Assembly: GCA_019321725.1 (NCBI GenBank)
Contig: CM033114.1
Location: 14,736,278 to 14,800,277, forward strand
Source of the DNA: Paulownia fortunei
Taxonomy: Eukaryota > Streptophyta > Magnoliopsida > Lamiales > Paulowniaceae
Reading direction: 5' to 3'
Length of the DNA stretch: 64,000 bases
Under the pieces are notes generated by a model, which did not search any database, was not told the origin of the DNA, and saw only the letters and a program-made list of their open reading frames with translations. Of the stretch, positions 2,313-63,495 are shown one piece after another. Position numbers and translations under genes: made by a program. Positions within the stretch are counted from its first letter, which is position 1, and every line of letters starts with the position of its first letter.

Positions 2313-2730
2313 AACCAACTTATTAGGTATCCAATCTATGATTGCTTCATATTCAAAGACAAAGTCATGCAGCTAGCTCGTCAAGGGAAGATCTCGCTTG
2401 AGGAAGATAGTGCAACTACCAATCTTATCACTATTGAATTTGAATCTTTTGATGTTATAATGGAGAATGTGACTAGATGCAGTAGGGGTGGAAAGCTTGA
2501 TCATGATAATAACATTTCATGTAACATGACAAGTGAACTAATGATTTCCTCCACTGAAGTCTATTTGTCTAAAAATGAAGTTCACAATGTCACTAATTAT
2601 TGTGTGTTGGCAATGACCTTCACTGATGAATATTTGTTGCTTGGTTCCAAACCCTGTAATAGACCATTATTCATAACTAGCTATACTCACGAGCAAAAAG
2701 TAAATAGGATATTGATTGATGGAGGCTCTG
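2313..2730 (+). pseudogene. Tat/Ogre-like gag-protease fragment, 5' half, interrupted by the Athila insertion
   Basis: The plus-strand frame contains VMQLARQGK, then LLLGSKPCNRPLF and the retropepsin motif ILIDGGS. This is the usual order at the Gag-protease boundary of Tat/Ogre-type Ty3/gypsy elements, in which the aspartic protease processes the polyprotein. The frame is open through about 140 codons. It is cut inside the protease active-site motif at 2730, where an Athila-type LTR begins. The reading frame resumes at 15817 after the inserted element and a 5 bp duplication. The 5' part of gag is not visible upstream of about 2313. Confidence 0.8.
2726..2730. repeat. Left target-site duplication of the Athila element (CTCTG)
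   Basis: CTCTG before the 5' LTR pairs with CCCTG at 15817-15821 after the 3' LTR. There is one mismatch in five, as expected for an old integration. Confidence 0.8.
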
Positions 2731-4342
2731 TGATAAGTGCATATTTTGACATATTTTTATATCAAATCCTTTATACTTTTCTTGCTTTATTCTTGTTAAT
2801 ATTATTGTTTTATTAATATTTTGTATTAGGGAATAAATGGAAGCATGTTTCCAAACTTGTGCAGTTTTTGTAATTTGAGCATAACTTCATGATCAAAAGC
2901 TCTATGGACCTGAAGCTTGTTTCATTTGAAAGCCAAGAGATAGAGGTACAAATTTTATGTTGGAGGCTCAGCCTAATTCAGTTTTGATGATAGCAGAAAA
3001 TTCATCCAAGTAATTACACAAAATGGATCACCAAAATTCAGATCAGAGTTCAGCCCAGTATTGACTTATTTTACCAATTCGGTTATATATCTTGAGCCCA
3101 AATTTATTTTAGTCTAAAATCAGGATATGTTATACCCAAGAGGTAAATAAACAAGTTTGCTGAAGACAAGATGGTATGAAAATATGTTGAAATAGTAAAA
3201 CCATAGGCTGCAAGTTGCTGCTGATGTTACAGGGTGGCTCTTGGACATGACTCGGTAATTTGACCATATCTCCTTCATCCGATCACCAAATTTAACAAAA
3301 GATATATGAAAATATATCAACGCTGAAAGATCTACAATTATTATTCTTCATATATCTTCAAAATCTAGTTGTATTTGACCGAAAAATATAATTCAATTCA
3401 GTGGATGAGAAATTTGTGCAACAACTTACCAACTCTTGGCAACTAGCATACCATTTGATTAACCCCTCCATTATTTGTTTGGCCTCTAGCTTACTCCAAG
3501 TACTATAAATAGGCCATGTATTAAGCTTGTAAGAGGAAGGGGCGAAAGGGTTTCTTTAGGCTAAGTTATCTAGTTTGTATGTGTTCTAGTATTGTAAGTT
3601 TTCTAGTATTAATAGAAATGCATTCTCTAGTTTCTCTTATATTTTTAGTCTTTGTTACTTTTATTATGTCTTTCTAAATTTTATTTTGCTGAGGAAAAAA
3701 GGTGAATCTCTTGATGGAGGAAGAGAAATGGTTATAAGGGTAGAAATTGTTTAAATATGTTGTATTATTATTATTATTTTTGATCTAAACCCTACTTATT
3801 TTGTGGTGATTCTTGATTTATGTATCTCCAATGGCACAACAAATACTTGGGTTCATTTAGCTTATTGTACGGTTTTACCCCACCGACTGCTAATGTGAAA
3901 CCTTGATTTGTTGTTGACGAAGGAGTACATAAATGCTTGATCCCATAAATAAGTGTTGGCGTTAAGAGATAATTTGCAATAGTAAGACAATATTATGATT
4001 ACCTTATTGCATGAGTTACTTGATAATATCTTCTCATTGGAACCTTCATTATGTATGGATTCCAATTGTGGCAATTAATAGAGGTAAAAAGAATAAATAA
4101 TCATTTCTCTATCCAAAACTCAAGAGTGGATCCCTAATCCTCAGTACTTTTATTACTTCGATTTTTCTTTAGTTACATCATACATTAATTATTCATATAT
4201 TTTGATTCACATAAACTCCATCTTTTTAGAAATATAAACTTGAATTCTTCAAACAACTTCCCTGTGGATCGACCTCGGACTCACGAGAAATTTATTACTT
4301 ACTACAACCTGCACTTGGGTTTGCAACCTTAAAGTTGTAGCA
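2731..4342 (+). repeat. 5' LTR of the Athila element
   Basis: This is a 1.61 kb direct repeat of 14232-15816, with TG and CA ends. It carries a TATA box and is followed at once by the six-base spacer and primer site. Several small differences from the 3' copy are visible, including about 20 bases near 3286 that are missing from the 3' copy. Confidence 0.93.
3504..3511 (+). promoter_or_regulatory. Probable TATA box of the Athila LTR promoter
   Basis: TATAAATA lies about half-way along the LTR and is conserved in the 3' LTR at 14991-14998. It would direct transcription of the element's genomic RNA. Position and conservation support it; no transcript evidence is available. Confidence 0.6.
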
Positions 4343-4348
4343 AGTTTT

Positions 4349-4366
4349 TGGCGTCGTTGCTGGGGA
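4349..4366 (+). other. Primer-binding site, tRNA-Asp type
   Basis: TGGCGTCGTTGCTGGGGA matches the complement of the tRNA-Asp 3' end (TGGCGCCGTTGCCGGGGA) at 16 of 18 positions and starts six bases after the LTR. It primes minus-strand cDNA synthesis in this lineage. Confidence 0.85.
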
Positions 4367-4440
4367 AGGCAAGGTAAGTATTTAGGTTTGTTAATATTTT
4401 TCCTTTGTAAATATAGTTTGTTTATTTTCTTTATAGATAT

Positions 4441-5457
4441 ATGGTTATATGGTATCGTAATCATAATTCTCGACGTTTAGTAAGAAATAATTCCGAAATT
4501 TTGTTTGAAAATTTATTTGAATCATCTCCACACACTTCCACCATGGCTGAAAATGAAAGTGTCCAAAATGAAAATGAGAATCAACAGGTGCGTATCATGC
4601 GTTATTACTTGCAACCTCCTCGAAATTCTTCTCCTTCTTGTTTCATTTTTCCTCTAAATGCAAATAATTTTCGATTCAAGTCATGTATGATCTCTTTACT
4701 TCCTAATTTCCATGGTTTAGACTCTAAAAGTCCTTACTTGCATTTAAAAGAATTTGATGAAGTATGTGCCACTTTTGATGATCAAACTTGCACAAATGAG
4801 ATTGTTAAGCTCAAATTATTTCCTTTTTCTTTAAAAGATAAAGCAAAAAATTGGCTTAATTCTTTAAAACCTAGGTCAATTGGCACTTGGCAAGAAATGC
4901 AAGCTGAATTCTTGAAAAAATTCTTTCCAACTCATAAAACTAATGCTTTGAAAAGACAAATTCAAATTTTTTCTCAAAATTCGAATGAAGTTTTCTTTCA
5001 ATGTTGGGAAAGATTTAAAGATTTGTTGAATTCATGCCCACATCATGGTTTTGAAAAATGGTGCTTAATTAGTTTCTTTTATGAAGGTTTAGCTCCTGAA
5101 ACAAAACAATTTGTTGAAACAATGTGTAATGGTGAGTTTCTTGATAAGGAACCTGATGAAACCCTAGAATACCTAGATCATTTGGCAGAAAACTCTCAAT
5201 CATGGCATAGTGTTAATTCTTTCGAAAGTTCTATTACATCTAATCTTGCTAATAGTAATAAAAGAAAATATTATCTTAGCCAAGAAGATGATCTAAATGC
5301 TAGACTTGCTAGTTTAACAAGAAAAGTTGAAGCCATGGAACTTAAAAAAGTAAAGGAAATCAAATCTGTGCAAGAGGAAGAAGTTTGTAGCAATTGTGAA
5401 CTTTTGGGGCACTCCACCAATGAATGTCCAAACTTCCAGTACAAGCAAATTTTATGA
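4441..5457 (+). CDS. gag: Athila-type Gag polyprotein (capsid/nucleocapsid), truncated by a frameshift
   Basis: This open frame of 338 codons encodes the structural protein that packages element RNA in cytoplasmic particles. The central retrotransposon Gag domain runs from about residue 65 (MRYYLQPPR, FKSCMISLLPNFHG) through LKLFPFSLKDKAKNWL and FKKFFPTHK-like segments to about 240. A CCHC zinc knuckle, CSNCELLGHSTNEC, lies near the C-terminus. A coiled-coil-like segment precedes it. The first ATG at 4441 is used because the homologous start is present at 63573. Comparison with the related copy near 57000 indicates a one-base loss at about 5435, just after the zinc knuckle, which ends the frame early. 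The original product continued into the next frame. Confidence 0.88.
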   Translation: MVIWYRNHNSRRLVRNNSEILFENLFESSPHTSTMAENESVQNENENQQVRIMRYYLQPPRNSSPSCFIFPLNANNFRFKSCMISLLPNFHGLDSKSPYLHLKEFDEVCATFDDQTCTNEIVKLKLFPFSLKDKAKNWLNSLKPRSIGTWQEMQAEFLKKFFPTHKTNALKRQIQIFSQNSNEVFFQCWERFKDLLNSCPHHGFEKWCLISFFYEGLAPETKQFVETMCNGEFLDKEPDETLEYLDHLAENSQSWHSVNSFESSITSNLANSNKRKYYLSQEDDLNARLASLTRKVEAMELKKVKEIKSVQEEEVCSNCELLGHSTNECPNFQYKQIL

Positions 5458-7450
5458 ACACATTCAAAAAGCTTTTCCATTCTCCATATTCTGAAACTTA
5501 CAATCCACAATAGAGAAATCATCCCAATTTCAGTTGGCGAGATGATAACTGTGCCCAACCACCGCATTCACAAAAACCACAAAACTTTCATTCTTATCCA
5601 CCTCCACATACAAAATCCATTGAGGAGACTTTGCAAGCATTTATGCATGAACAAACAAACATCAATAATCAGACTTCACAAGCTATCAATGAGATCAGAA
5701 GCACACTTTCAACACTGACAACTTCTTTGTGTACTCATGAAAAAGGTAAATTTCCTGCTCAACCTCAACCTAATCCTTCTACTCAGTGCCATGTTTCTTC
5801 TTCAGGTGAAAATGCAGTCAAGGAGGCTAATTCAGTTACAACTCTTCGGAATGGAAAAGTTGTTGACAAGACTATTCATCCCAAGGAGAAAGTTTCTAAT
5901 CCACCTCCAGAAATGAAAAATGGAAATAGTCTTGATGATGAAGGTAAGTTTGAAGAAGGTAAGCGTGAAAATGATGAAAAAGAAAAATATTTACCTCTAG
6001 CACCATTTCCTCAAAGATTGCAAGCAACTCAGAAATTGAACTCAAATGCTGAAATTTTTGAAATTTTTAAACAAGTCAAGATCAATATTCCATTATTGGA
6101 TGCAATCAAGCAAGTTCCACCTTATGCCAACTTTTTGAAAGATTTATGTACAATCAAAAGAAAACATCATGTACAAAAAAAGGCATTTTTAACTAAAAGT
6201 GTTAGTTCAATCATTCAACAATTCACTCCACCAAAGTACAAAGATCCAGATTGTCCAACCATTTCATGTATCATAGGAAACACTAGAATAGAGCGTGTTT
6301 TGCTTGATCTTGGTGCTAGTGTAAATCTTCTACCTTTCTCAGTTTATGAACAGTTAGGTTTGGGAGAACTTAAAACAACTTCTGTTGTACTCCAACTAGC
6401 TGATCATTCGATTAAAGTTCCAAAGAGAATAGTAGAAGATGTGTTGGTACAAATTGATAAGTTTTACTTTCCAGTTGATTTCATTGTTTTGGACACAGAG
6501 CCTGTTGCACAAACACATACACAAATTCCTATCATTTTGGGTCATCCTTTTCTTGCAACTTCAAATGCTTTGATCAATTGTAGAAATGATATTTTGAAGT
6601 TATCATTTGGAAATATGACTTTGGAACTAAATGTGTTTAATATTTGTATGCAACCTGCAGAAGATGTCGAAGTACATGAAGTGGATTCAATTGAGGAACT
6701 TGTTCATGAATACTTTACTACTACTAACTCTTCACATTCTTTGGAGACTTGTTTTAAAAGTGAAAGTATTTATAAAAAGGAACAAACTAATACTATCTCT
6801 GAATTTTTGCAGGTACAAGAAAAATATTTTTGGAAGCCAAGGTTCGAAGAACTTTCATCATCAACAGTAAAATCTATTCCATCAAGTATTAAAGCTCCCG
6901 TGGTTGAATTGAAACCTTTGCCAGTTAATTTGAAATACTCTTTCTTGGGTGAGAATGAAACTTTTCCAGTAATAATTTCTTCCAAACTCGATACATCTCA
7001 AGAAGGTAAGTTGATCGAAACTCTGAAAATGCATAAGAATGCTTTAGGATGGACCATTGTTGATATTAAAGGTATTAATCCTTTCATTTGCACACATAAC
7101 ATCTATCTAGAGGAAAATGCTAAATCATCTAGAGAAATGCAACGAATGCTAAATTCTAATATGAAAGAAGTAGTAAGAAATAAAGTCATTAAACTCTTAG
7201 ATAATGGAATCATTTATTCTATTTCTGATAGCAAATGGGTAAGTCCTACTCAAGTTGTACCTAAGAAATCTGGAGTTACTGTAGTCAAGAATGAGAATGA
7301 TGAATTAATTTCAACTAGGACTGTTACTGGTTGGCGAATGTGCATTGACTATAGAAAACTCAACTCAGTTACTAGAAAAGATCATTTTCCATTACCTTTC
7401 ATGGATCAAATTTTAGAAAGAGTTGCGGACACAAATTTTATTGTTTTTTA
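5454..7450 (+). pseudogene. pol: Athila Gag C-terminus, protease and start of reverse transcriptase
   Basis: The frame continues from Gag after the one-base loss, is interrupted by TAG at 5511-5513, then stays open to 7448. It holds a Gag C-terminal segment (FMHEQTNINNQTSQAINEI near 5640), a charged linker, and an aspartic protease with LLDLGASVNLLPF at about 6300-6338, where the usual DxG(A/S)S core is readable as DLGAS. The first reverse transcriptase blocks follow (KWVSPTQVVPKKSG, WRMCIDYRKLN near 7330). A one-base shift in a T run at about 7445 moves the remaining reverse transcriptase into another frame. The protein is therefore broken at two places at least. Confidence 0.88.
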
Positions 7451-8400
7451 GATAGATATTGTGGGTATAATCAAATTGCAATTGCACTTGAAGATCAAGA
7501 GAAAATAACTTTTACATGTCCTTTTGGTACTTTTGCATATCGAAGGATACCTTTTGGATTATGTAATGCACCAACTATATTCCAACGATGCATGCTTAGT
7601 ATTTTTAGTGACATGGTTGAACGTTTTCTTGAAGTCTTCATGGATGATTTTTCTGTTTTTGGTAATTCATTTGATGATTGCTTATCTAATTTAGAAAAGG
7701 TTTTGATCAGGTGTGAAGAAAAGAATCTTGTGCTCAATTGGGAGAAATGTCATTTCATGGTAACAACTGGTATTGTTTTTGGACACATTATATCATCAGA
7801 AGGTATTGAGGTTGATAAATCTAAAATTGAGTTAATTGCTAATTTGCCAACACCAAAGACTGTGAAGGAGATTATATCATTTTTAGAACATGTTGGTTTT
7901 TATAGAAGATTTATCAAAGATTTTAGTATAATATCTAAACCTTTGTATAATCTTCTAACAAAAGACACTATTTTTGAATGGACTGAAAATTGTGAAAATG
8001 CTTTTGTTAAGCTTAAAAGCATGCTTACGTCTGCTCCAATCATGCAGCCTCCAGATTGGACTTTACCTTTTGAAATAATGTGTGATGCTAGTGATTATGC
8101 TGTTGGAGCTGTCTTGGGACAAAGAAAGATAAAAAACCACATGTTATTTACTATGCAAGTAAAATTTTAAATGGTACTCAATTGAATTATACAACAACTG
8201 AAAAAGAATTACTTGCTGTAGTTTTTGCATTGGAAAAATTTCGATCTTATCTTGTTGGCTCACCAATTGTTGTTTTCAGTGATCATGCAGCTTTGAAATA
8301 TCTTTTGTCAAAAAAAGATGCTAAACAAGACTGATTAGGTGGATTCTCTTACTCCAGAAATTTAATGTTACTATTCGAGATAAAAAGGGAGTAGAGAATG
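7451..8400 (+). pseudogene. pol: Athila reverse transcriptase core and RNase H
   Basis: The frame restarts at 7451 with the palm segment. FMDDFSVFG at about 7638-7664 is the catalytic (Y/F)xDD box that binds the two metal ions. The thumb and connection regions follow (FLEHVGFYRRFIKDF), then RNase H with CDASDYAVGAVLG near 8080. A one-base change in the A run at about 8128 shifts the frame, and another at about 8325 shifts it again before the conserved ADHLSRL at 8405. The domain order RT then RNase H is normal for Ty3/gypsy. All catalytic blocks are recognisable but no single frame spans them. Confidence 0.88.
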
Positions 8401-9175
8401 TAGTGGCTGATCATTTGTCGAGACTTGTTTGTGATGACTCGTTTCAAACCACACCTATTAATGACACTTTCCCTGATGAACAATTATTTAATATTTCTAT
8501 TTTACCTTGGTTTGCTGATATTATTAATTTTCTTGTGACAGGAAAGATGCCATCGCATTGGAACTCTCAAGACAAAAAGAAGTTTTTGACTGAGGTTAAA
8601 AAAAATTATTAGGATGATCCATACCTATTCAAATATTGTCCGGATCAAATCTTTCGAAGATATGTGCCTGACAATGAGATAGGTAATATTATCAAATTTT
8701 GTCATTCAGAACCATGTGGTGGTCATTTTTCTGTAAAGAAAACTACTACAAAAATCTTGCAATGTGGATTTTATTGGCCAACTCTTTTCAAAGATACTTA
8801 CACTTTCTGCAAAAGTTGTGAAAATTGTCAAAAGTTAGGGTCCCTTTCAAAGAGAAATATGATGCCCCTACACCCTATCCTAGTGATTGAAATCTTTGAC
8901 TGTTGAGGTATTGATTTTATGAGGCCATTTCCATTATCATTTGGTTTTCTTTACATATTGGTGGCCATAGATTATGTTTCAAAATGGATCAAAGCAATTC
9001 CTTGTCGAAACAATGATCACAAAATAGTGATAAAATTTTTGAAAGAAAATATTTTAAGTCGATTTGGAATTCCTAGATCTATTATCAGTGATGGGGGAAA
9101 ACATTTTTGTAACAAAGTTTTTGGAACTTTAATGAAGAAATATGGAATCATACATAAAGTTGCAACCCCTTATCA
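8401..9175 (+). pseudogene. pol: Athila integrase, N-terminal zinc domain and first part of the catalytic core
   Basis: Integrase inserts cDNA into chromosomes. The HHCC zinc-binding module is readable as HSEPCGGH followed by CKSCENC (about 8700-8830). The core carries the first two acidic positions of the DDE triad in GIDFMRPFP (about 8915) and IISDGG (about 9085). Stops occur at 8610-8612 and just before 8910. The core is cut at 9175, before the glutamate, by an inserted DNA transposon. The third acidic residue (NGQVELANRE) lies beyond it at about 10257. Confidence 0.87.
9168..9175. repeat. Target-site duplication of the hAT-like insert (left copy, CCTTATCA)
   Basis: CCTTATCA is repeated exactly at 10242-10249 on the far side of the insert. 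Eight base pairs is the hAT superfamily duplication size. Confidence 0.9.
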
Positions 9176-10241
9176 CAGACCCGACCACGGGCCGGGTCCG
9201 AATCGGACCAGGACCGTGGTCAATGGGTTCTGACCCATTGACCACGGTTCACGGGTTGGAACCGTGAACCGGCCCATGAGCCCATGGGCCGGTTACGGTT
9301 CATCTAATCCCCGTGGCCCGACCCAGCGGTTTTTATTTTTTTTATTTTTTTTAATTTCAAAATAGTGTGTAAAAATATGCTATGTAGGTTTTGAACTTAG
9401 GACCTCTAAACTATTAATAGAACACTCTAACCAAGTGAGCTAATGGATCATATGTTTATAATTTTGAATAAGTGCATAAATAAGTCTCATGATTTGTTTT
9501 TTTATTTTTTTTCCTCAAATTGCTTGTCTTATTTTTTAAAATCAATATAATTGGTATTGTGTCCTTCTTTAAATTTAATTAATTAGTTTCAACAAATTAC
9601 AAATCAAGTCCTATATTTAAGCATTCAACATTTCATCTTAATAATAAGTAAAGTTTTGGAAATTATCTAATGATACTACTTTACAATTATCTTAATAATA
9701 AATAAATTTATAATTTTTAAAAATATTTAATAATGTTACTTTACAATATCTACTGTTTATTCCCCAACTTCTCATTTAATATTATTAAATTATTGTAATG
9801 TTTAATTGATTTTATATAATAATATTAACTCCAAAAACTAAAATTTAGTAAATTGTGTTTTATCAATACAGTGTAATGAAAAAATTATTTTTTAAAAATT
9901 TCATAAATTAATTTAGTCACTTTTGTTTTGGATCATATGCTTAAATTTTAGTTATTTTTTTTCAAATTTAAGTTATTTTTTTTTCATTAAGTTTAAAAAG
10001 TAACAATATTTTTTGCAAATTTAAATTCAAAAAAATTTTAAAAAATAAAATAAATATAAGGGTCGGAACCGGAACCGGAACCGGCGGTTAACCGGAACCA
10101 TAATCGAAACCGAAACCGGCGGTTCCAGAACCCGGACCGTAACCGGCCTTGGCGGTTAAGGTTAAGGGTCGGGATTTTCTTGAACCGTGGAACCGCGGTT
10201 CCGAACCGTAACCGGCGGTTCTTGAACCGTGGTCAGGTCTA
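9176..10241. mobile_element. Non-autonomous hAT-like DNA transposon in the integrase gene
   Basis: The insert is 1,066 bp and is flanked by perfect 8 bp duplications. Its ends, CAGACCCGACCACGG on the left and the complement TAGACCTGACCACGG on the right, agree at 13 of 15 positions. About 150 bases at each end are GC-rich and dense in short CCGGTT/GGAACC and GGGCC-type motifs in both orientations, typical of subterminal binding repeats. The centre (about 9330-10050) is AT-rich, with no recognisable transposase. Removing it restores the expected continuity of the integrase codons. Superfamily assignment rests on the duplication length and end structure. Confidence 0.85.
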
Positions 10242-10862
10242 CCTTATCACCCTCAGACAAATGGACAAGTTGAACTTGCAAATAGGGAGATAAAATAAAT
10301 TTTGGAGAAAACAGTTAACCCAAACCGTAAAGATTGATCTCTTAGACTTACCGATACACTTTGGGCATACAGAACTGCTTTCAAAAACATCATTAGGCAT
10401 GTCTCTTATAGGATAGTTTATGGAAAACCTTGTCATTTACCTGTTGAACTTGAACATAAGCTTATTGGACAATCAAAATGTTTAACTTCAACCTTGATGA
10501 AGCTTCAAAATTGCGCAAATTGCAAATCAATGAACTTCAAGAACTGAGAAATGATGCATATGAGAATTCTAAAATTTATAAATCAAGAATCAAAGATTTT
10601 CATGATAACAAAATTTCAAAAAAAAATTTGAGTTGGTCAAAAGTTTTGCTTTATAATTCTCGATTGCATTTGTTCCTGAAAAATTGAGATCAAGGTGGAG
10701 TGGTCCTTTTGTTGTAAAAAAAGTATATCCTTATAGGGCAATTGACATTGAGAATCCTAGAAATGGTAACATATTTAAGTAAATGGACAAAGAGTTAAAC
10801 CATTTCTAGAAAATCAATTTTCACAAGAGGAAATTCTTTTTCTTTCTAACCCTTGTTATGAT
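10242..10862 (+). pseudogene. pol: Athila integrase, C-terminal part
   Basis: This continues the integrase after the hAT-like insert. QTNGQVELANRE carries the catalytic glutamate, and the later stretch reads [16 protein letters not shown], the GPF/Y-type C-terminal module that binds DNA. The frame contains a stop in place of a codon after NREIK (about 10294), another near 10336, and frame changes around 10475 and 10670. Pol appears to end near 10862. The 5' flank includes the right target duplication of the insert. Confidence 0.82.
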
Positions 10863-11068
10863 TAGTGTTGTATATACTCATTTTTCTCTTACATTATTTA
10901 TTTATTTATTTTTTTTTCTTCTTCTTTTATTTTTTTTCTTTTCCAGTTAAATGGCGGATAACGGTACTCCGTGGCTATAAAAATCGGACTTGTCAGTTTC
11001 CCAAATAACTGAAATCTTTGTACAAATTTTCTTTGCTTTTCTCATTCTCTTTTCTTGTTCTTTTCAAA

Positions 11069-11239
11069 ATGGGTGACATTTTTCTAACTCTCAAGAAGCG
11101 ATTTCCTTTTCTTCCTAAAAATGTAATTTTAAAAATTTATAAAATCAGGATTGAAAGATTGAGGATGCTTATGCACAAGGGCATTTCGGAGGACATGCGA
11201 TGGATAATTGAAGCAAAGGTAAGGACAGGTGAATTTTAA
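11069..11239 (+). CDS. Unrecognised short ORF after pol
   Basis: A basic peptide of 57 codons starts at the first true ATG (MGDIFLTLKKRFPFLPKN). It is rich in Lys, Arg and Ile and shows no motif I know. It lies between the end of pol and the next block, in the region where Athila elements often carry an extra env-like ORF. It has no predicted transmembrane stretch. It could be the first exon or fragment of a captured gene, or the remnant of an element-specific ORF. Confidence 0.35.
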   Translation: MGDIFLTLKKRFPFLPKNVILKIYKIRIERLRMLMHKGISEDMRWIIEAKVRTGEF

Positions 11240-11280
11240 CATAAGTTTCTCAGATTTGCTTACTAGATACATGTCTGGTT

Positions 11281-11730
11281 TTGGTAAAAGCACATATTCA
11301 AAAAAAACGAAGGGCGAAAAAAATGAAAGTTTGTCATATTTGTATTAGATGGACTTGCAACATAAAGTGTCGTTCTTTAGGAATGGTCTCTAAAAATCGA
11401 GAAGATAAACTTAAATTCATTATGGATGGACTAAGTAAGGAGTCTTTAGATCATATTATATTGACTCTTGAGACGCATTCATGTGGATTGGTACAACGTG
11501 CAATTCTTGATTTATGAGATCGTTTTTGAAATGAATATGAGCTTTATAGTCTTGAGAATCTGACATTAAAAGACCCTATTTGCCAGTTTATAAGAAAACT
11601 GGATGAGGAGCATATCCTCGACCCATAGAGGGCATTTAAGCTGTTACTGGACGTAAAACCAGAGGAAGATGTGAACCACAATCACAACTATATGTACATA
11701 CACGTGTTAGTAGGTAATTTTTAAATTTCG
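11281..11730 (+). pseudogene. Unrecognised cysteine-containing ORF upstream of the LOG-like gene
   Basis: One frame, broken by stops at about 11515, 11527 and 11626, reads for some 150 codons. Near its start is a cysteine cluster, CHICIRWTCNIKC (C-x2-C-x4-C-x3-C), which could bind zinc. A helical, Leu/Glu-rich segment follows (DKLKFIMDGLSKESLDHII, then LETHSCGLVQRAILDL). The same frame stays readable through the stops, which suggests it was once a protein-coding gene. It sits immediately 5' of the LOG-like sequence, so the two may have been captured together or may be parts of one element-encoded product. I do not recognise the family. Confidence 0.5.
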
Positions 11731-11873
11731 TATGTGTCTTTATTTTCAACCTTTTTGTCAAAATAAAAAGACATGCAATAAATGTATTCTCTGTTCACAC
11801 CTCAATAAAATATCACCGTACTCACTCTATTTTTTGCACAACTCATTTTTTAAAAAAAAAAAAAGAAAAAAAA

Positions 11874-12527
11874 ATAGAAGTATCTTCAACTCGCAAATTT
11901 AATTCCATTTGTGTTTTTTGTGGATCCAATCTAGAAAAAAATGGTGAGTTTATAGGGGCAGCCAATAACCTTGGTAGAACTTTAGCAGAAAGAAAAATTC
12001 ATTTAGTGTATGGGGGAGGCAGTTTGGGGTTAATGGGGAGTGTTGCTATTTTTGCTTATGTAGGAGGTGTCAAAGTTTTGGGAGTTATCCCAAAATCTTT
12101 AAACAGTACAGAATATCACAGGTATGACCATTGGAGATGAGCTAAAAGTGTCACATATTCAGGACAAAATGCCTAACATGTTAAACAATGCGGATGCATT
12201 CATCATTCTACTTGGCGGTTTTGGTACACTGGAGGAATTATTCCAAATTGTCTCTTGGCACAACTCAACATTCACCAAAAACCTATAGGTATTCTTAATG
12301 TTAATGGTTTTTATGATGGTTTGCTATCTTTTGTAGATCATGCTGCGAAAAAAGGGTTTATTTCAACTTCTGCGAGAAGAATCATCATTTCTGCTCCAAC
12401 ACCTGACTAGCTGATTGATTAACTTCTAGCATATGTGCCAAAACCTGATCCAGCCTTGGCCAATGTGGATTGGTCCAATAGGAACAATGGTCGAAAATGC
12501 AAATTAAATTTGACTCTCAGTCTGTGA
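11874..12527 (+). pseudogene. LOG-like: Captured LOG-like gene (cytokinin riboside 5'-monophosphate phosphoribohydrolase)
   Basis: LOG enzymes cut ribose 5'-phosphate from cytokinin nucleotides, giving active cytokinin in the cytosol. Over about 215 codons the translation follows the LOG fold in order: ICVFCGSN at the start, LVYGGGSLGLMG (about 12005-12040), [26 protein letters not shown] (12190-12240), [30 protein letters not shown] and YVPKPDP. The signature PGGxGTxxE reads L-GGFGTLEE, so proline is lost but the catalytic glutamate is kept. The usual upstream Arg/Glu pair of the RKAEM segment is replaced. Frameshifts lie near 12115 and 12259, and stops at 12408-12410 and 12420-12422. The probable start codon is ATA at 11874. 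Plant LOG genes have several introns and none is present here, so it derives from a spliced transcript. Confidence 0.88.
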
Positions 12528-14231
12528 TACTTATTGTTAATAATTTTATCTAATAGTTTTTTTTTTGTTTCAGCTTTATTACCCGCATTTCAAGTGATAT
12601 CTTTCAAACTCTACTTTCCTATCTATTTTTGACATTGGGGACAATGTCTCGATTAGGTTGGGGGGAGGGATAATTGATATCATGACTTGTATATTCAATG
12701 TGTGTTTTCTAGTATTTAAAAATAAAAATAAAAAATATAAATCAAGCAATTTTTTTTTGGGTACGTTGAAAGCATGAAAAAAGGTGGCTGAGTAAAGGGT
12801 AATTGTAACACTCTTGAGATGCATCCCTATTTTTTTTGCATAACATGGCAGGTTTGTAAAGTTTTTAACTAATGTTTGTGAATTATCAATTATTTTTTTT
12901 GAGTCGTATAGGTTCTTCCAACTTCAATGATTAAAATTAAGCATGAATAATATGGTTTGATTGATGATGGGTGTTGTTTTGGACTTTGATGTTGTTATTT
13001 AGTTAATATATTTTTGCGATAATTATACTCAAATTTTATTTTGCACAAATAATTATGTTATTTAGTGTGAAGACAATCATGTCAAAATAGATAGTTCTTA
13101 TACCCTTGCTCTAATCATCACTTGAATCTTCAACATGTAGGGGTTGAGTATTAGAACTTTTACTTTTGGTCTGTCGAGGCGAACGACTGATAGTGCACCA
13201 CTAGAAAAATGATTAAGGCATTAGGTTTTCTAGCACCATTGCCAAATCAGCTTGTTCCCTATATGATGTTTCAAGAAAACATCCCTTAGTAAACCACTTT
13301 GAGCCTTACAATAAATAAATATTTTTTTTTGTAACCATATCTTTTTACCTAGCCTAAATACACTATTATCCAACCCTTGTTCTAAAAATGATTGGAGTTT
13401 AAGAGACATTCAATTGAAAGCTTGAACTTACAAAAGAAATTCAGGTTGGGATAGAAGATAAGTGTGGGGGAGTTTCTCTTAAAAAAAATAAAATAATAAT
13501 AAAAAAAAATTGGAAGTGCTACAAGTTGCAACTAAAAATGAGATGTTGCAAGATGAATAAGAGGGGTCCAATTCAATAACAATAGACTCCAGTGTGAAAT
13601 TTATGGAGTTGGAGAATTCTTCATCGATAAATTTTATGTCTCTAATTTCATGAAGTTTTTAGAACCTTTATTGCATCCTATCCTTTTATTTCTTAGCTAC
13701 ATCACCACCCTTTGGCCCCATTACAACCTTTGTTGAAGACCTTTTGATTTTGTGTGGTGCCTTCAGTGTAGTGGAGATTTGCACCAAAGGAAGAGCCTAT
13801 GATGTTTAACTTTTCTGTTAGAGATTGGGTGATGGTTTTTGTAAGGTTTTATGAGAATTCACTTATTTGAAACATGCATAGTTTCATCACTATTGACATT
13901 AACTGTCCACACACACACTTGAGTATGATTATTGTGAAAATGTATTGATTTTTGAATGACTAAGAGTTAAACTCAACACTTGTTTGATTTTATTTCCATA
14001 TTACTTTGTTGCTTCATGAGAATAAAAGTTGGAAGATAGTTATTATAGGTGTTTGTAGGTATCACTGCTGGAAACCTTCACGAGACTACAACTCGTCCTC
14101 TATGGGCCACCTAGGGGTTTAAAGGCTTGTTGCATATGCTAAATACAATCGTGATTTCCTACGAAAGTGGATTAGTTTATATTTGTTTTAAGCTTGCTCG
14201 AGGACAAGCAAGGGTTAAGTGTGGGGGAATT
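12528..14231 (+). other. Athila 3' non-coding region with three polypurine-like tracts
   Basis: No coding potential is visible. G-rich purine tracts occur at 12656-12670, 13461-13473 and 14216-14231. The last directly abuts the 3' LTR (AAGTGTGGGGGAATT) and is the expected primer for plus-strand synthesis. The sequence just before it, GAGGACAAGCAAGG, is typical of Athila/Tat elements. Confidence 0.75.
14216..14231 (+). other. Polypurine tract of the Athila element
   Basis: TAAGTGTGGGGGAATT ends directly at the first base of the 3' LTR, where plus-strand cDNA synthesis starts. Confidence 0.85.
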
Positions 14232-15816
14232 TGATAAGTGCATATTTTAACATATTTTTATATCAAATCCTTTATACTTTTCTTGCTTTATTCTTGTTAA
14301 TATTATTGTTTTATTAAATTTTTGTGTTAGGGAATAAATGGAAGCATGTTTCCAGACTTGTGCAATTTTTGTAATTTGAGCATAACTTCATGATCAAAAG
14401 CTGTATGGACCTGAAGCTTGTTTCATTTGAAAGCCAAGAGATAGAGGTACAACTTTTATGTTGGAGGCTCAGCCAATTCAGTCTTGATGATAGCAGAAAA
14501 TTCATCCAAATAATTACACAAAATGGATCACCAAAATTCGGATCAGAGTTCAGCCCAGTATTGACTTATTTTACCAATTCGGTTATATATCTTGAGCCCA
14601 AATTTATTTTGGTCTGAAATCAGGATATGTTATACCTAAGAGTAAATAAACAAGTTTACTGAAGACAAGATGGCGTGAAAATGTGTTGAAATGATAAAAC
14701 CATAGGCTGCAAGTTGCTGCTGATGTTACAGGGCGGCTCTTGGACATGACTCGGTAATTTGACTATATCTCCTTCATCTGATATGAAAATATATCAACGC
14801 TGAAAGATATACAATTTTGACTCTTCACGTATCTTCAAAATTTGGCTGTATCTGACCAAAAAATATAATTCAATTCAGTAGATGAGAAATTTGTGGCAAC
14901 AACTTACCAACTCTTGGCAACTAGCATACCATTGATTAACCCCTCCATTATTTGTTTGGCCTCTAGCTTACTCCAAGTACTATAAATAGGCCATGTATTA
15001 GGTTGTAAGAGGAAGGGGGAAAAGGGTTTCTTTAGGCTAAGTTATCTAGTTTGTATGTTTTCTAGTATTGTAAGTTTTCTAGTATTAATAGAAATGCATT
15101 CTCTAGTTTCTCTTATATTTTTAGTCTTTGTTACTTTTATTATGTCTTTCTAAATTTCATTTTGTTGAGGAAAAATGGTGAATCTCTTGATGGATGAAGA
15201 GAAATGGTTATAAGGTAGAAATTGTTTAAGTATGTTGTATTATTATTTTTATTTTTGATCTAAACCCTACTTATTTTGTGGTGATTCTTGATTTATGTAT
15301 CTCCAATGGCACAACAAATACTTGGGTTCATTTAGCTTATTGTACGGTTTTACCCCACCGACTGCTAATGTGAAATCTTGATTTGTTGTTGACGAAGGAG
15401 TATATAAATGCTTGATCTCATAAATAAGTGTTGGCGTTAAGAGATAATTTGCAATAGTAAGACAATATCATGATTACCTTATTGCATGAGTTACTTGATA
15501 ATATCTTCCCATTGGAACCTTCATTATGTATGGATTCCAATTGTGGCAATTAATAGAGGTAAAAAGAATAAATAATCATTTCTCTATCCAAAACTCAAGA
15601 GTGGATCCCTAATCCTCAGTACTTTTATTACTTTGGTTTTTCTTTAGTTACATCATACATTAATTGTTCATATATTTTGATTCACATAAACTCCATCTTT
15701 TTAGAAATATAAACTTGAATTCTTCAAACAACTTCCCTGTGGATCAACCTCGGACTCATGAGAAATTTATTACTACTACAACCTGCACTTGGGTTTGTAA
15801 CCTTAAAGTTGTAGCA
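14232..15816 (+). repeat. 3' LTR of the Athila element
   Basis: Direct repeat of 2731-4342 with the same TGATAAGTGC start and TTGTAGCA end, TATA box at 14991-14998. It is slightly shorter because of small deletions. It is followed by the right target duplication CCCTG (15817-15821). Confidence 0.93.
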
Positions 15817-16405
15817 CCCTGCAGTAAATATCTTACCCTTACGTACACTTAAGGAGTTGGGGATTTTTATGGATAAACTTGCAAACAGTCGTTTGATAAT
15901 CCAATATTTCAACAAAGGGGACCAGAGGGCTCTTGGTATCATAAGATTAAAATTATTTATGGATGATATGGTCTCAACTGCGCTATTTCATGTTATAGAT
16001 GTCAAAACCTCATATAACATGCTTCTTGGTCATCATTGGTTGCATGAAAATGGAGTAACTCCTTCCACTTGGCACCAATGTTTCAAGTATTCTAGAGATG
16101 GCATGGTAAAAAGAGTGTTCAACGACGATAAACCTTTTATCCTCTAAATCACATTTTGCTGATGCTAAGTACTATCTCAAAGATGCAAAGAAAATGAAGG
16201 CTAAAGATAGTCTATCTCATGAGAAATCCAAGCAACAAAATGATGGCGTTGGAGGAGTAAAACCAAAAACACTTTCCCAACTTATAAAGATTATTTAAAA
16301 AGAGAATCATCTCTCACTGAGGTTGGGCCTTGAAGGAATTGGTGTTTTCTCTGACAAAGCTCGATGCAAAGAAACCGTTTTCTCAGCCACTTGAAGGATT
16401 TGTTC
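15817..16405 (+). pseudogene. Tat/Ogre-like protease fragment, 3' half
   Basis: This resumes the reading frame cut at 2730. The active-site motif is completed by AVNIL and a following TLKELG, then an open stretch including [15 protein letters not shown], the conserved C-terminal ILGxxWL-type block of the protease, to [10 protein letters not shown] at 16144. After a stop the homology weakens (Lys- and Ser-rich, with ENHLSLRLGL-like traces) until an antisense LTR begins at about 16406. No reverse transcriptase of this element is present, so it is truncated here. Confidence 0.8.
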
Positions 16406-18051
16406 TATAACACCCCCACCACTAAATACAAATATTAATATAACAATAATTTTGACAAGGTAGCACATGTGTATATATAAAAATTTTGTCAACTGGAGCA
16501 CTTTGAGAAATAGTAAAAGTGTTTTCTCACATATAACTTGTTTATACAAAAATCACCGTTTATATAAAAATACAACACCAATCACAATCACACTATTCTC
16601 AAACTTATTTACTATAAAATTTCAAGAGTATATAGGACACGGCATCTCAAAGTTATAATACAATAGACTCAAAAATTAAAATAATAGCTTATACTTTCGA
16701 AAGAAGTAAGGACATTTTGCATCTTGTAAATCTTTATATATAGACAACAATTTACACAATAATAATGATTGTAAAAATTAGGGTATCCCATAACACAACC
16801 CAACAGGTCATCATCCATGTACAGTGATCCTTAAAAGCCTCTAGAAGCTCTAACAACTAACCAATAAGTTTTAGAGTCTCAGGTGTCACCATGCTTACCT
16901 ACAATGCATGAACTACATGAGCTAATGCTTAGTAAGTGAAAATGATGCATGATGAAGGGATAATCTAAATGCAATGCATTTCTATGAGATCGTGACAAAA
17001 ATTTAAACTAATACATCAAAAATAGTTCATTCAAAGTTATTTTTCATCATTGGGCCCTTGGCCCACCTACTATGTACCGAATAGAGCTCTTAATAATATC
17101 AATAATCACATGACCATAAACAGATTGACACAGTCCAGGGGCCATCTCCTGGGATCACCAGAGGTCCACCCCCGATCTTCCCCTGTGATCCTCTAGAAGT
17201 CTTCCCACCAGCGGTGTCAATAAGGGCACAGTCAAGTGGTCCACCCTCTCGTGACCACCAGAGGCTCACCCCCTGTCAACCCCTATGATTCTCCGAAAAA
17301 TAACACTCGTGGCGCCCCAAAATATCACATAAGCATGCCTCGTATGCCTCGGTACACTAGTAGTGGCCAACCAAAATAGTTTCTTTCTGAAAATCATGTC
17401 TCAAATCATATCATGCATGCAAGAACCTCAACTGTGAGCACGTGTTATGCATGCGCGTGTAAATGTTGATGAATGGCATGTTCAATGACATAATGGATCT
17501 CAGTCCCATCATCCAAGCAATGCATGCACTATAAGATATTTATAATACTCATCAAGACACTCATCATGACACAAGAATCACATTTAATATAAATAAGCAA
17601 GAAATACTATGCCCATGCATTGTAGTTGCAAATGAATTTTCACTTATCTTTGATCGATTGTATATTACTTCTAGGTTTCTTAAGTATTACTCCTCAACCC
17701 TAGACGTGAAACAATCTGTAAAAATACAAGATATCAATCACCATCCTCAATTAATAAATTCATTATATATAATGTAATATAAAGTTCTTGAATCTCAATT
17801 TAACTAAACAACCTTACCACTTAGAAACTATAACCGAATACAACCTTCAATGTACTTTTGTTCCACATCTTAAATGTATACTAACCTCACTTAATTGATG
17901 TATTCTAACTCTTACAATATTTCCCTAAATGTTAGGGATCAAATGCACCACATCTATGCTGGAACTTGTTAATGAACCAAATGGTATAAATTCACAACTT
18001 CACATTTTCTTGCTGCCACATTAATTTGCATGATGATTTTGACACCCTTAT
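16406..18051 (-). repeat. Antisense long LTR (family B), 3' part, truncated at the satellite
   Basis: The minus strand ends in GGGTGTTATA and is similar to the 3' part of the solo LTR at 38063-40919. Shared blocks include the tGAGCATTAGCTCATxTAG...GCATTGTAGGTGAG segment (complement of about 16880-16935) and the CATGCATG-rich part. The homology stops at about 18051, where the satellite array begins. A GC-richer stretch at 17130-17300 holds two imperfect copies, about 110 bases apart, of a CACCAGAGGxxCACCCCC unit that is missing from the copy at 38063-40919. Confidence 0.7.
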
Positions 18052-21000
18052 TAAAAGTATAACTTTTAAAAGTTTTTCTATATTTTGTTAAATTTAATTT
18101 AAACGTTCATACTAAATCTTACAAGCATAATAACTCAAAATTAGAAATATTTAAAAAATTAAAATAAATAAATAATTTGTGTTCGACGTTTAAAGAGTAA
18201 ACTTATTTTAATTGATATTATTAACTTGTTTCTATTTTGAATAAATAAAGTTAATGTTGAAAGTGTAATTAAATGTTTTCTTTACTTTACGATATTCAAT
18301 TTAAAAGTATATACTTAATTTTACTAGCACAATAACTCCAAAGAAAAATATTTAAAAGTTTTAAAATCTAAAAAAATAAAATCAATTAAATACAAAAATA
18401 AATAATATGTTAGGAATATTTTTAAAGTATATGTATTTTTGTTCCTTTGATTGTAAGAAATAGTTCTTATTTATAGTAACTAAACCATATACAAATATTC
18501 TTAAATTCTAAAATCTAATAAAAGGGCAATTCTTTGTATCTTTATATTATTGTAATAAAGCAAAATAATAGATTTAAACGATTTAATTATGGATATATTT
18601 TTCAATATTTTAGGAAACATAATTTAAAAGTATATACTAAACCGTACTAGCACAATAACTCAAAATAAAAAAATATTTAAAAAAATTAAAAATAAAAAAA
18701 TGCTATTAAAAATAAAAAAAATACATAATATGATTTCAATATTTTAACACTAAACATATTTTAATTCCTTAGTTAGTAATAAATGAGTTTTATTAAGAAT
18801 AACTAAGGTATATAATTTAATTTTAAAAGTGGAATTAAAGATTTTCTTTATTTTATGATATTTAATTTAAAAGTATATACAAAATCTTACTAGTACAATA
18901 ACTCAAAAAATATATTTATAAGAAGTTACAAGTCTAAAAAAAATGGAATTGAAACTCAATACTAAAATAGGTAATGTGTATTCAGTATTCTAAAAGTAAA
19001 TATATTTTAATTCCATGATATGAATTGAATATTTTTAAAAGAAATATATTTTTGTGTCCTTCAATAGTATTTGGTTGAAATATACAATTAATTTAACTTT
19101 AGAATATTGATCTATAAAAATTGAATATTTTAAATTTGAAATTATAATTACTAAAAAAATTTAGCTCACTAAGATAACTTTTAAATATCAATACAAAGTT
19201 GAAACATAACTTATAATTTGAGAGAATTAGCAACACGAATACATTGTCTTCTTTTTGTCTTCATATTTATTGTTATTATTTGAGGCAAATTAATAAATTT
19301 AATAGATTTATTAATTTAAATATTTTTCATTATTCTACTAAATTTAACGTAATAATATATACTTAATTTTACTAGCATAATAACTTAGAAATATAAATAC
19401 TTTAAAATTTTAAAATCTATTAAATTATAAAAAGAAATTAAAAATAAAAATAGTTGATATGTAACAAAAATGTATTTTAATTCCTTGGATAGTATTTAAA
19501 TTTTTTATAAAAATTAATGTAATAGTATATACTAAATTTTACTTGCACAATAACTAAGAAATATAGATATATAAAATATTTAAATATAATAAAATACAAA
19601 AAAAAATATTTCACTTTCTTAGATAGTATATTGTTTTTATTTTGTAACTGAAGCATATATTTTAATTTTAATAACAAAATTAAATGTTTCACTCTATTTT
19701 TGATATTTAATTGCAAATTAAATTTATTAAAAAAATAAAAAATATATTTTTAAAGTTGTAAAAGTAAATATATTTTAATTCCCTAGATAGTATTTAGTTG
19801 AAATATACAATTAATTTAACTTTGGGATATAGGACATTGAAATAATTAAAATATATTTTTAAATTTAAAAGCTTGATTTTTAAAGGCGATTAAATAATTT
19901 TTATTTAGAATAAGTAAAGAATTTATTAATATTTAAAAAGTTGTAATTCTAACAAAAATGCAGCATAAATTAAGTACACAGATACATTATACGTATTGAA
20001 TATTTTGAAAATAAACATCTTTTAATTCGTTAGATAGTATTTCATTGAAATTTGTAATTAATTTAACGTTATAGTATTGGTCTAAGAATACTAAAAGTAT
20101 TTTAAATTATTTTAATTTAAAAGTATAACTTTTAAAGGTTTGTCTATATTTTATTAATTTAATTTAAACGTTCATACTAAATCTTACAAGCACAATAACT
20201 CAAAATTAGAAATATTTAAAAAATTAAAAACAATAAATAACTTGTGTTCGACGTTTGGAAAGTAAACTTATTTTAAATGATATTGTTAACTTGTTTCTAT
20301 TTTGAATAAATAAAGTTAATTTTTGAAAGTGTAATTAAAGGTTTTCCTTACTTTACGATATTCAATTTAAAAATATATACTTAATTTTACTAGCACAATA
20401 ACTCCAATAAAATTATTTAAAAGTTTTAAAACCTAAAAAAATGAAATCAATTAAATACAAAAATAAGAATATTTTTAAAGTATATGTATTTTTGTTCCTT
20501 TGATTCTAATAACAGTTCTTATTTATAGTAACTAAACAATATACAAATATTCTAAAATTCTAAAATCTAATAAAAAGGCAATTCTTTGTATATTTATATT
20601 ATTGTAATAAAGCAAAATAATAGATTTAAATGATTTAATTATGGATATATTTTTCAATATTTTATGAAACATAATTTAAAAGTATATACTAAACCGTACT
20701 AGCACAATAACTCAAAAATAGAAAAATATTTTAAAAAATTTAAAATAAAAAAAATGCTATAAAAATAAAAAATACATAATATGAATTCAATATTTTAACA
20801 CTAAACATATTTTAATTCCTTAGTTAGTAATAAACGGGTTTTATTAAGAATAACTAAGGTGTGTAATTTAATTTTAAAAGTGGAATTAAAGATTTTCTTT
20901 ATTTTATGATATTTAATTTAAAAGTATATACAAAATCTTACTAGCACAAAAACTCAAAAAATATGTTTATAAGAAGTTACAAGTCTAAAAAAATTAGAAT

Positions 21001-24000
21001 TTAAACTCAATACCGAAATAAGTAATGTGTATTCAGTTATTCTAAAAGTAAATATATTTTAATTCCATGATATGCCTTGAATATTTTTAAAAAGAAATAT
21101 ATTTTTGTGTCCTTCAATAGTATTCGATTGAAATATACAATTAATTTAACTTTAGAATATTGATATATAATAATTGAATATTTTAAATTTGAAAGTATAA
21201 TTACTAAAAAAAATTAGCTCACTAAGATAACTTTTAAATATCAATACAAAGTTGAAACGTAACTTATAATTTGAGAGAATTAGCAACACGAATACATTGT
21301 CTTCTTTTATCTTCGTATTTATTGTTATTGTTTGAGGCAAATTAATAAATTTAACAGATTTACTAATTTAAATATTTTTCATTATTCTACTAAATTTAAC
21401 GTAATAATATATACTTAATTTTACTAGCATAATAACTTAGAAATATAAATATTTAAATTTTTTAAAATCTATCAAATTATAAAAAGAAATTAAAAATAAA
21501 AAATAATTGATATGTAACAAAAATATGTTTTAATTCGTTGGATAGTATTTAAATTTTTTACAAAAATTAATGTAATTTATATATATTGAATTTTACTTGC
21601 ACAATAACTCAAAAATATTGATATATAAAAATATTAAAATCTAATAAAATACAAACAAAAATAAATAAAATATATTTCACTTCCTTAGATAGTATTAAAT
21701 TATTTTTATTTTGTAACTGAAGCATATATTTTTATTTTAATAACAAAATTAAATGTTTCTCTCTATTTTTGATATTTAATTACAAATTAAATTTATTAAA
21801 AATAAAAAAATATATTTTTAAAGTTGTAAAAGTAAATATATTTTAATTCCCTAGATAGTATTTAGTTAAAAATATACAATTAATTTAACTTTGGGATATA
21901 GGACATTGAAATAATTAAAATATATTTTTAAATTCAAAAGCTTGATTTTTAAAGGGCGATTAAATAGTTTTTATTTAGAATAACTAAAGAATTTATTAAT
22001 ACTTAAAAAGTTAAAAATCTAACAAAAATGCAGTATAAATTAAGTACACAGATACATTATACGTATTGAATATTTTGAAAATAAACATCTTTTAATTCGT
22101 TAGATAGTATTTCGTTGAAATTTGCAATTAATTTAACGTTATAATATTGTTCTAAGAAAACTAAAAGTATTTTAAATTATTTTAATTTCAAAAGTATAAC
22201 TTTTAAAGATTTTTCTATATTTTATTAATTTTAATTTAAACGTTCATACTAAATCTTACAAGCACAATAACTCAAAATTAGAAATATTTAAAAAAACTAA
22301 AAACAATAAATAACTTGTGTTCGACGTTTGGAAAGTAAACTTATTTTAAATGATATTATTAACTTGTTTCTATTTTGAATAAATAAAGTTAATGTTGAAA
22401 GTGTAATTAAAGGTTTTCTTTACTTTACGATATTCAATTTAAAAATATATAGTTAATTTTACTAGCACAATAACTCCAATAAAAATATTTAAAAGTTTTA
22501 AAACCTAAAAAAATGAAATCAATTAAATACAAAAATAAGGAATATTTTTAAAGTACATGTATTTTTGTTCCTTTGATTCTAATAAATAGTTCTTATTTAT
22601 AGTAACTAAACAATATACAAATATTCTAAAATTCTAAAATCTAATAAAAAGGCAATTCTTTGTATCTTTATATTATTGTAATAAAGCAAAACAATAGATT
22701 TAAACGATTTAATTATGGATATATTTTTCAATATTTTATGAAACATAATTTAAAAGTATATACTAAACCGTACTAGCACAATAACTCAAAAATAAAAAAA
22801 ATTTTTAAAAAATTTAAAAATAAAAAAAACGCTATAAAAATAAAAAATACATAATATGAATTCAATATTTTAACACTAAACATATTTTAATTCCTTAGTT
22901 AGTAATAAACGGGTTTTATTAAGAATAACTAAGGTGTGTAATTTAATTTTAAAAGTGGAATTAAAGGTTTTCTTTACTTTATGATATTTAATTTAAAAGT
23001 ATATACAAAATCTTACTAGCACAAAAACTCAAAAAATATGTTTATAAGAAGTTACAAGTCTAAAAAAATTAGAATTTAAACTCAATACCGAAATAAGTAA
23101 TGTGTATTCAGTATTCTAAAAGTAAATATATTTAAATTCCATGATATGCCTTGAATATTTTTAAAAGAAATATATTTTTGTGTCCTTCAATAGTATTCGG
23201 TCGAAATATACAATTAATTTAACTTTAGAATATTGATATATAATAATTGAATATTTTAAATTTGAAAGTATAATTACTAAAAAAATTTAGCTCACTAAGA
23301 TAACTTTTAAATATCAATACAAAGTTGAAACGTAACTTATAATTTGAGAGAATTAGCAACACGAATACATTGTCTTCTTTTTGTCTTCGTATTTATTGTT
23401 ATTGTTTGAGGCAAATTAATAAATTTAACAGATTTATTAATTTAAATATTTTCATTATTCTACTAAATTTAACGTAATAATATATACTTAATTTTACTAG
23501 CATAATAACTTAGAAATATAAATATTTAAATTTTTAAAATCTATCAAATTATAAAAAGAAATTAAAAATAAAAATAATTGATATGTAACAAAAATATGTT
23601 TTAATTCGTTGGATAGTATTTAAATTTTTTACAAAAATTAATGTAATTGTATATATTGAATTTTACTTGCACAATAACTCAGAAATATAGATATATAAAA
23701 ATATTAAAATCTAATAAAATACAAACAAAATAAATAAAATATATTTCACTTCCTTAGATAGTATTAAATTATTTTTTATTTTGTAACTGAAGCATATATT
23801 TTATTTTAATAACAAAATTAAATGTTTCTCTCTATTTTTGATATTTAATTACAAATTAAATTTATTAAAAAAATAAAAAATATATTTTTAAAGTTGTAAA
23901 AGTAAATATATTTTAATTCCCTAGATAGTATTTAGTTAAAAATATACAATTAATTTAACTTTGGGATATAGGACATTGAAATAATTAAAATATATTTTTA

Positions 24001-33000: not shown

Positions 33001-34475
33001 GCAATTCTTTCTATCTTTATATTATTGTAATAAAGCAAAATAATAGATTTAAACGATTTAATTATGGATATATTTTTCAATATTTTATGAAACATAATTT
33101 AAAAGTATATACTAAACCGTACTAGCACAATAACTCAAAAATAAAAAATATTTAAAAAATTTAAAATAAAAAAAACGGTATAAAAAATAAAATACATAAT
33201 ATGAATTCAATATTTTAACACTAAACATATTTTAATTCCTTAGTTAGTAATAAACGGGTTTTATTAAGAATAACTAAGGTGTGTAATTTAATTTTAAAAG
33301 TGGAATTAAAGGTTTTCTTTACTTTATGATATTTAATTTAAAAGTATATACAAAATCTTACTAGCACAAAAACTCAAAAAATATGTTTATAAGAAGTTAC
33401 AAGTCTAAAAAATTAGAATTTAAACTCAATACCGAAATAAGTAATGTGTATTCATTATTCTAAAAGTAAATATATTTTAATTCCATGATATGCCTTGGAT
33501 ATTTTTAAAAGAAATATATTTTTGTGTCCTTCAATAGTATTCGGTCGAAATATACAATTAATTTAACTTTAGAATATTGATATATAATAATTGAATATTT
33601 TAAATTTGAAAGTATAATTACTAAAAAAATTTAGCTCACTAAGATAACTTTTAAATATCAATACAAAGTTGAAACGTAACTTATAATTTGAGAGAATTAG
33701 CAACACGAATACATTGTCTTCTTTTTGTCTTCGTATTTATTGTTATTGTTTGAGGCAAATTAATAAATTTAACAGATTTATTAATTTAAATATTTTTCAT
33801 TATTCTACTAAATTTAACGTAATAATATATACTTAATTTTACTAGCATAATAACTTAGAAATATAAATATTTAAAATTTTTAAAATCTATCAAATTATAA
33901 AAAGAAATTAAATATAAAAATAATTGATATGTAACAAAAATATGTTTTAATTCGTTGGATAGTATTTAAATTTTTTACAAAAATTAATGTAATTGTATAT
34001 ATTGAATTTTACTTGCACAATAACTCAGAATATAGATATATAAAATATAAAATCTAATAAAATACAAACAAAAATAAATAAAATATATTTCACTTCCTTA
34101 GATAGTATTAAATTATTTTTTATTTTGTAACTGAAGCATATATTTTTATTTTAATAACAAAATTAAATGTTTCTCTCTATTTTTGATATTTAATTACAAA
34201 TTAAATTTATTAAAAAAATAAAAATATATTTTTAAAGTTGTAAAAGTAAATATATTTTAATTCCGTAGATAGTATTTAGTTAAAAATATACAATTAATTT
34301 AACTTTGGGATATAGGACATTGAAATAATTAAAATATATTTTTAAATTCAAAAGCTTGATTTTTAAAGGGCGATTAAATAGTTTTTATTAAGAATAACTA
34401 AAGAATTTATTAATATTTAAAAAGTTAAAATCTAACAAAAATGCAGTATAAATTAAGTATACAGATACATTATAC
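18052..34475 (+). repeat. Satellite array 1: about eight copies of a 2.07 kb higher-order repeat
   Basis: A fixed marker (ACAAGCAcAATAACTC) recurs at 18121, 20186, 22258, 24329, 26399, 28465, 30540 and 32606, spacing 2,065 to 2,075 bases. Neighbouring copies are almost identical. Within each unit, about six diverged copies of a box like TATATACTTAATTTTACTAG followed by CACAATAACTC are spaced irregularly (first unit about 18109, 18308, 18631, 18871, 19356, 19524). Diverged TTTTAATTCCTTAGATAGTA blocks also recur, so the 2.07 kb unit is itself built from older sub-repeats. No coding sequence is credible: the few ORFs are Lys/Ile/Phe/Tyr-rich chance frames. The array starts and ends within a unit. 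Confidence 0.95.
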
Positions 34476-63404: not shown

Positions 63405-63489
63405 TTCCCTGTGGATCGATCTTGGACTCTCAAAAACTTTATTACTTAACACAACCAGTACTTGGGTTTGCAACCTTAAAGTTGTAGCA
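63405..63489 (+). repeat. 3' end of an Athila LTR
   Basis: These 85 bases match 4258-4342, from TTCCCTGTGGATCG to TTGTAGCA, the last part of the Athila LTR. The rest of this LTR is missing because the Tekay LTR lies immediately upstream. Confidence 0.88.
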
Positions 63490-63495
63490 AGTTTT

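Follow-up and report, generated by a model that had tools for sequence, protein, structure and literature searches.

We identified, within the 64-kb window (the whole stretch of DNA analyzed here), a decayed Athila-like Ty3/gypsy element of 13.1 kb that holds an intron-free, disabled copy of a plant LOG coding sequence between pol and its 3' LTR. The reading that we favor, and regard as probable, is that this is one decayed copy from an element lineage that carries a LOG-derived extra ORF at this position.

The host element

The element is bounded by LTRs at 2731-4342 and 14232-15816, and its parts are arranged as follows.

2726..2730 and 15817-15821, forward strand: target-site duplication (TSD) of five bases with one mismatch, 5' copy CTCTG and 3' copy CCCTG
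2731..4342, forward strand: 5' LTR, 94.7% identical by blastn to 14232-15816; read from the sequence, it starts TGATAAGTGC and ends GTAGCA
4349..4366, forward strand: primer binding site-like TGGCGTCGTTGC..., read from the sequence and presumably of the tRNA-Asp type
4417..5454, forward strand: gag (PF03732, E=4e-23 on 4441-5457)
5514..9175, forward strand: protease, RT, RNase H and integrase with frameshifts and stops (PF13650, PF00078, PF17917/PF17919, PF17921, PF00665)
9176..10241: non-autonomous insert of 1.07 kb, presumably hAT-like, splitting the integrase; its direct repeat CCTTATCA is of 8 bp, and its inverted ends of 15 bp differ by two mismatches
10250..10858, forward strand: broken 3' end of the integrase, from reading frames judged by eye; the two pieces tested have no Pfam match
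10949..11720, forward strand: degenerate open stretches after pol, ~0.8 kb, from reading frames; three pieces have no Pfam match at the cut-off, and the longest has no PDB match
11874..12527, forward strand: intron-free, disabled LOG copy, from frame pieces, Pfam, TIGR00730 and PDB matches, alignment and tree
14232..15816, forward strand: 3' LTR, from blastn against the 5' LTR, with purine-rich GTGTGGGGGAATT just before it

The first-pass annotation had placed LOG between pol and the 3' LTR, and this position is borne out inside a single LTR- and TSD-bounded Athila-like element, where about 1.7 kb separate the LOG copy from the 3' LTR. Among the eleven parts that we measured, LOG has the highest G+C content (37.5% versus 24 to 34%). 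When both flanks of the element are read together, they join to encode DGGSAVNILP, which we take to be a retroelement protease motif; the LOG-bearing element thus sits in another retroelement.

Between the LTRs, the domains follow the gag-PROT-RT-RH-INT order by which the Athila clade is recognized, with the protease match being weak (PF13650, 22.6 bits, under the cut-off of 24.3). Angiosperm Tat elements are distinguished from Athila by an aRH domain that lies between RH and INT (PMC6317226). Scanning 8325-8609 revealed no such second RNase H between RH (to 8331) and the zinc domain of INT (from 8613), which under that definition favors Athila over angiosperm Tat (PMC6317226). Together, the domain order and the missing aRH speak for an Athila-like Ty3/gypsy element. 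The Athila ORF-1 domain PF03078 was not matched in the element pieces scanned, an absence that is common among Athila elements, 16% of which are reported to contain the domain (PMC6317226).

Identity and state of the LOG copy

Read in the three forward frames, the LOG copy resolves into collinear pieces in frame A (11889-12137), frame B (12112-12285) and again frame A (12255-12524). The joined pieces match 13 distinct PDB sequences at E<=1e-3, headed by Arabidopsis At2g37210 (2a33; E=1.4e-47) and At5g11950 (1ydh; 2.8e-43), which we take to be LOG3 and LOG8, respectively, and followed by the remaining LOG-type chains with E values from 2e-38 on. The tested homology spans ~11895 to 12482, with the query aligning to 2a33 over residues 3-215 of 229; we infer the outer limits, 11874 and 12527, from an ATA near the expected start, which is the probable start codon, and an in-frame TGA at 12525-12527. 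All three pieces also match the NCBIfam profile TIGR00730 in collinear order (2-74, 81-121 and 120-177 of 178), each scoring under the cut-off for whole proteins, as fragments should, and Pfam assigns PF18306 to piece 1 and PF03641 to pieces 2 and 3. There is no intron-sized gap within the coverage of the profile (2-177 of 178). The combined TIGR00730, Pfam and PDB coverage therefore indicates that the LOG coding sequence is nearly complete and intron-free. The strength of the 2a33 match rejects chance motifs as the source of the LOG likeness. In line with the first-pass annotation, then, the four motifs that it quoted are all present, the ~650-bp stretch is a LOG by its 2a33 match, profile coverage and grouping with plant LOGs, and introns are absent from its collinear pieces. 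Its statement that plant LOG genes are multi-exon likewise agrees with reports on peanut, where LOG genes have mostly seven exons (PMC13257298), and on eggplant, where SmLOG1 is cited for the seven-exon structure of plant LOGs (PMC11226868).

A tree with the LOG family, which the first-pass annotation had proposed, places the copy in a clade with two Arabidopsis LOGs (support 100/97). The branch of the copy is long (2.42), and the tree program cautions about long-branch joins. The 47 rows of the tree comprise the copy, 43 of 45 bacterial loci (L042 and L043 were removed by the ORF filter), 5zbj, which we take to be a bacterial LOG-type chain, and the two Arabidopsis LOGs, which constitute the entire plant sample. 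The copy is identical to 2a33 at 93 of 193 positions (48%), to 1ydh at 86 of 191 and to 5zbj at 81 of 182; between the Arabidopsis pair, 133 of 194 positions are identical. Among the phage records listed, 20 of 21, LOG matches are at most 37.7% identical. A bacterial or phage origin of the copy is disfavored by its grouping with the Arabidopsis LOGs. Among IMG/VR viral contigs, LOG piece 3, an RT piece and gag gave 14, 14 and 3 pattern matches, respectively, none of which was confirmed.

The copy carries two frameshifts and two stops, both stops in the third piece, and its reading frame is not open; damage of both kinds had been seen at first pass. The PGGxGTxxE motif has a known role in LOG. 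Where it is expected, the copy reads LGGFGTLEE, so that alignment with the 46 other LOGs upholds the earlier observation that the copy retains the catalytic glutamate (of GG.GT.EE) but has lost the signature proline. An Arg-Lys pair that is invariant in these 46 LOGs is replaced by Lys-Met, and another glutamate, also invariant in all 46, by glutamine. With the proline of PGG and the Arg-Lys pair replaced, we regard the copy as a relative of LOG rather than a working LOG; judged by its lesions, it makes no enzyme now.

Proposed capture, age and divergence

In the reading that we favor, a spliced plant LOG mRNA would have become linked to the RNA of the element, with template switching in the particle as the likeliest route, and LOG would from then on have been copied whenever the element was. 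The loss of several key residues of LOG would precede the insertion of the present copy, after which the LOG copy would have decayed further in place, along with the rest of the element, and sister copies of the element would be predicted to carry the same LOG ORF. Template switching is our deduction for the mechanism of capture; reverse transcriptase switching between packaged RNAs is a described route to host-element chimeras (review PMC13317346). Within the window, no second LOG-bearing copy emerged from a blastn search with 9001-14231 or a tblastn search with the LOG pieces (other tblastn matches had E values of 3 or worse).

The flanks of the LOG copy bear on a different route, in which a LINE would have made a processed LOG pseudogene and inserted it into an existing element copy. 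Such a pseudogene would also be intron-free and decayed, and an interrupted A-rich stretch with two AATAAA at ~12718-12733, some 190 bases past the LOG stop, could be its worn poly(A) tail. This stretch, however, has a T breaking it at intervals of four to five bases and is located past GGGACAATG...GGTTGGGGGGAGGG, which we take to be Athila-type sequence. Moreover, no A-run directly follows the LOG stop codon, the long A-run at 11852-11873 sits on the 5' side of LOG, and the words shared between the two flanks are A/T-rich and at most 10 bases long, leaving no convincing duplication. Because both a direct 3' A-run and a convincing flanking duplication are missing, a LINE-made retrocopy is disfavored, and we consider it quite improbable.

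Just upstream of LOG, 10949-11873 consists of unmatched degenerate stretches with an AATAAA at 11804 and the A-run at its end. This region possibly marks where a second captured transcript ended, or it may be an extra ORF belonging to the element itself; we found no further support for a second transcript end.

The LTRs allow the insertion to be dated in terms of divergence. The pair differs by 58 substitutions (43 transitions) and 9 gaps, 8 of which are not multiples of three, over 1587 aligned sites in an alignment that overran the LTR ends by three to four bases. The resulting K2P distance of 0.0376 corresponds to ~0.019 changes per site that each copy has accumulated since the element inserted. 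Against this clock, the LOG copy has changed at 4 of 18, 8 of 39 and 10 of 47 invariant sites (at thresholds of 100%, 95% and 90%), where 0.75, 1.62 and 1.95 changes, respectively, are expected since insertion (Poisson P 0.007, 0.0003 and 0.00004), assuming 2.25 nonsynonymous sites per codon. Change at invariant sites is thus about five times the post-insertion expectation. Because this exceeds what the age of the LTRs allows, LOG is either an old passenger or derives from a divergent paralog. The element lineage thus probably acquired LOG, or LOG had already diverged, long before the present insertion.

The same numbers bear on capture as a single event, in which a spliced LOG mRNA would have template-switched into this one element or its immediate parent. 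Such an event would account for an intron-free LOG of CDS length inside one LTR pair and agrees with the lack of a second LOG copy within the window, but the roughly fivefold excess would require a source that was already divergent or degenerate, and each of the Citrus species has at least five Gypsy consensuses that bear LOG under the filter of PMC9289625. We consider a one-off capture unlikely. The first-pass annotation had inferred that a spliced LOG transcript was transduced into the element; its spliced-mRNA origin fits the intron-free copy of CDS length, whereas invariant-site change in excess of the LTR age speaks against a host gene that was simply caught and then broken.

A further possibility is that a divergent host LOG paralog was captured, and that most differences from the Arabidopsis LOGs predate the capture and are normal for a paralog. 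At the 131 sites where both Arabidopsis LOGs agree, the copy differs at 52, 15 of which need at least two base changes. These changes avoid conserved sites (8 of 39 versus 44 of 92 other Arabidopsis-agreeing sites; Fisher P 0.0036), indicating that much of the divergence arose under constraint, as a paralog would predict. They are not significantly clustered along the protein (839 of 10000 shuffles equal or exceed the maximum observed). A proline, an arginine, a lysine and a glutamate that are invariant in the 46 other rows are nevertheless replaced, which one would not expect of a working enzyme. Part of the excess divergence, or less easily all of it, could be due to a divergent paralog, which we hold as a tentative alternative, somewhat unlikely by itself. 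We read the divergence as having two parts: the parental lineage would have parted from LOG3/LOG8 under constraint, and unconstrained change would have been added, with about one fifth of the codons changing without constraint, mostly before the present insertion.

Whether the frame was intact at insertion can be gauged from the disablements. The four that we observed (2 frameshifts and 2 stops) compare with 1.84 expected in 654 bases when 85% of indels are assumed to be frameshifting (P 0.12), such that the LOG frame could still have been open when the copy inserted. Counting the lost start raises the number to five (P 0.04), which favors decay before insertion over an open frame. The frame may therefore have been open, or nearly so, at that time. 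An extension of the lineage reading is that the elements kept the LOG-derived ORF open for long while its catalytic residues changed, using the LOG-fold protein for a purpose other than cytokinin activation. If true, the element's LOG-fold protein might, for example, bind nucleotides or interfere with host LOG assembly; we regard this as a long shot. The readings considered here overlap, and the likelihoods that we attach to them do not sum to one.

Comparable elements and the rest of the window

Steinbauerova et al. 2011 (Genetica 139:1543) reportedly described two Athila-like elements similar to LOGL4, and the LOG likeness is said to lie in an extra ORF of these Athila-like elements, as we propose here. 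The first-pass annotation knew of no description of LOG in such an element, but a LOG domain in plant Gypsy elements has already been published (PMC9289625). In that survey of 121 angiosperm genomes, Citrus sinensis and C. clementina have Gypsy consensuses with the YgdH domain, whose other known occurrence is in LONELY GUY proteins; Populus trichocarpa joins them once the filter is switched off, a result stated there to agree with Steinbauerova et al. 2011 (PMC9289625). The present copy is therefore a further example of a LOG-like domain in Gypsy elements and not a discovery. By their description, the Citrus and Populus elements hold the same LOG-family domain in a Gypsy-type element, whereas the present copy is disabled (PMC9289625).

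Other plant elements offer further parallels. Maize Bs1 likewise contains host coding sequence inside an LTR element, but as partial segments of three genes, in contrast to the CDS length of one gene here (PMC13317346). Phalaenopsis Gypsy elements bearing AlkB also have an extra ORF for a host-type enzyme; the AlkB protein is active in vitro, whereas the present LOG copy is broken (PMC9289625). Genes captured by LTR elements in rice and sorghum similarly include many pseudogenes, in what was a genome-wide survey whose main text does not contain the terms 'lysine decarboxylase', 'cytokinin' or 'Athila' (PMC3726574). To these cases, the present element adds a well-bounded and dated example of a plant Gypsy element that carries the gene for a hormone-activating enzyme. 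Since its divergence beyond the LTR age suggests an old passenger, use of LOG by the element as opposed to mere carriage becomes testable.

Elsewhere in the window, we noted several features in their own right. The sole Rfam match, of 42.6 bits with a gathering score of 40, is to snoR71 and falls within gag, on the minus strand of 4943-5051, and ARAGORN found no tRNA. TRF, run at score 200 for periods up to 500, reported no array. At a larger scale, a tandem array at 18050-34410 has a unit of ~2.07 kb that itself holds related sub-units, and a second array at 47051-50741, with a period of ~1.06 kb and the opposite orientation, is ~66-81% like parts of the 2.07-kb unit. Finally, 56330-57964 and 63405-64000 contain gag and LTR/gag-start DNA that is 84-86% like the LOG-bearing element and abuts another retroelement, of which 57968-60042 repeats 43829-46029; these parts do not follow one another as a simple insertion would have them.
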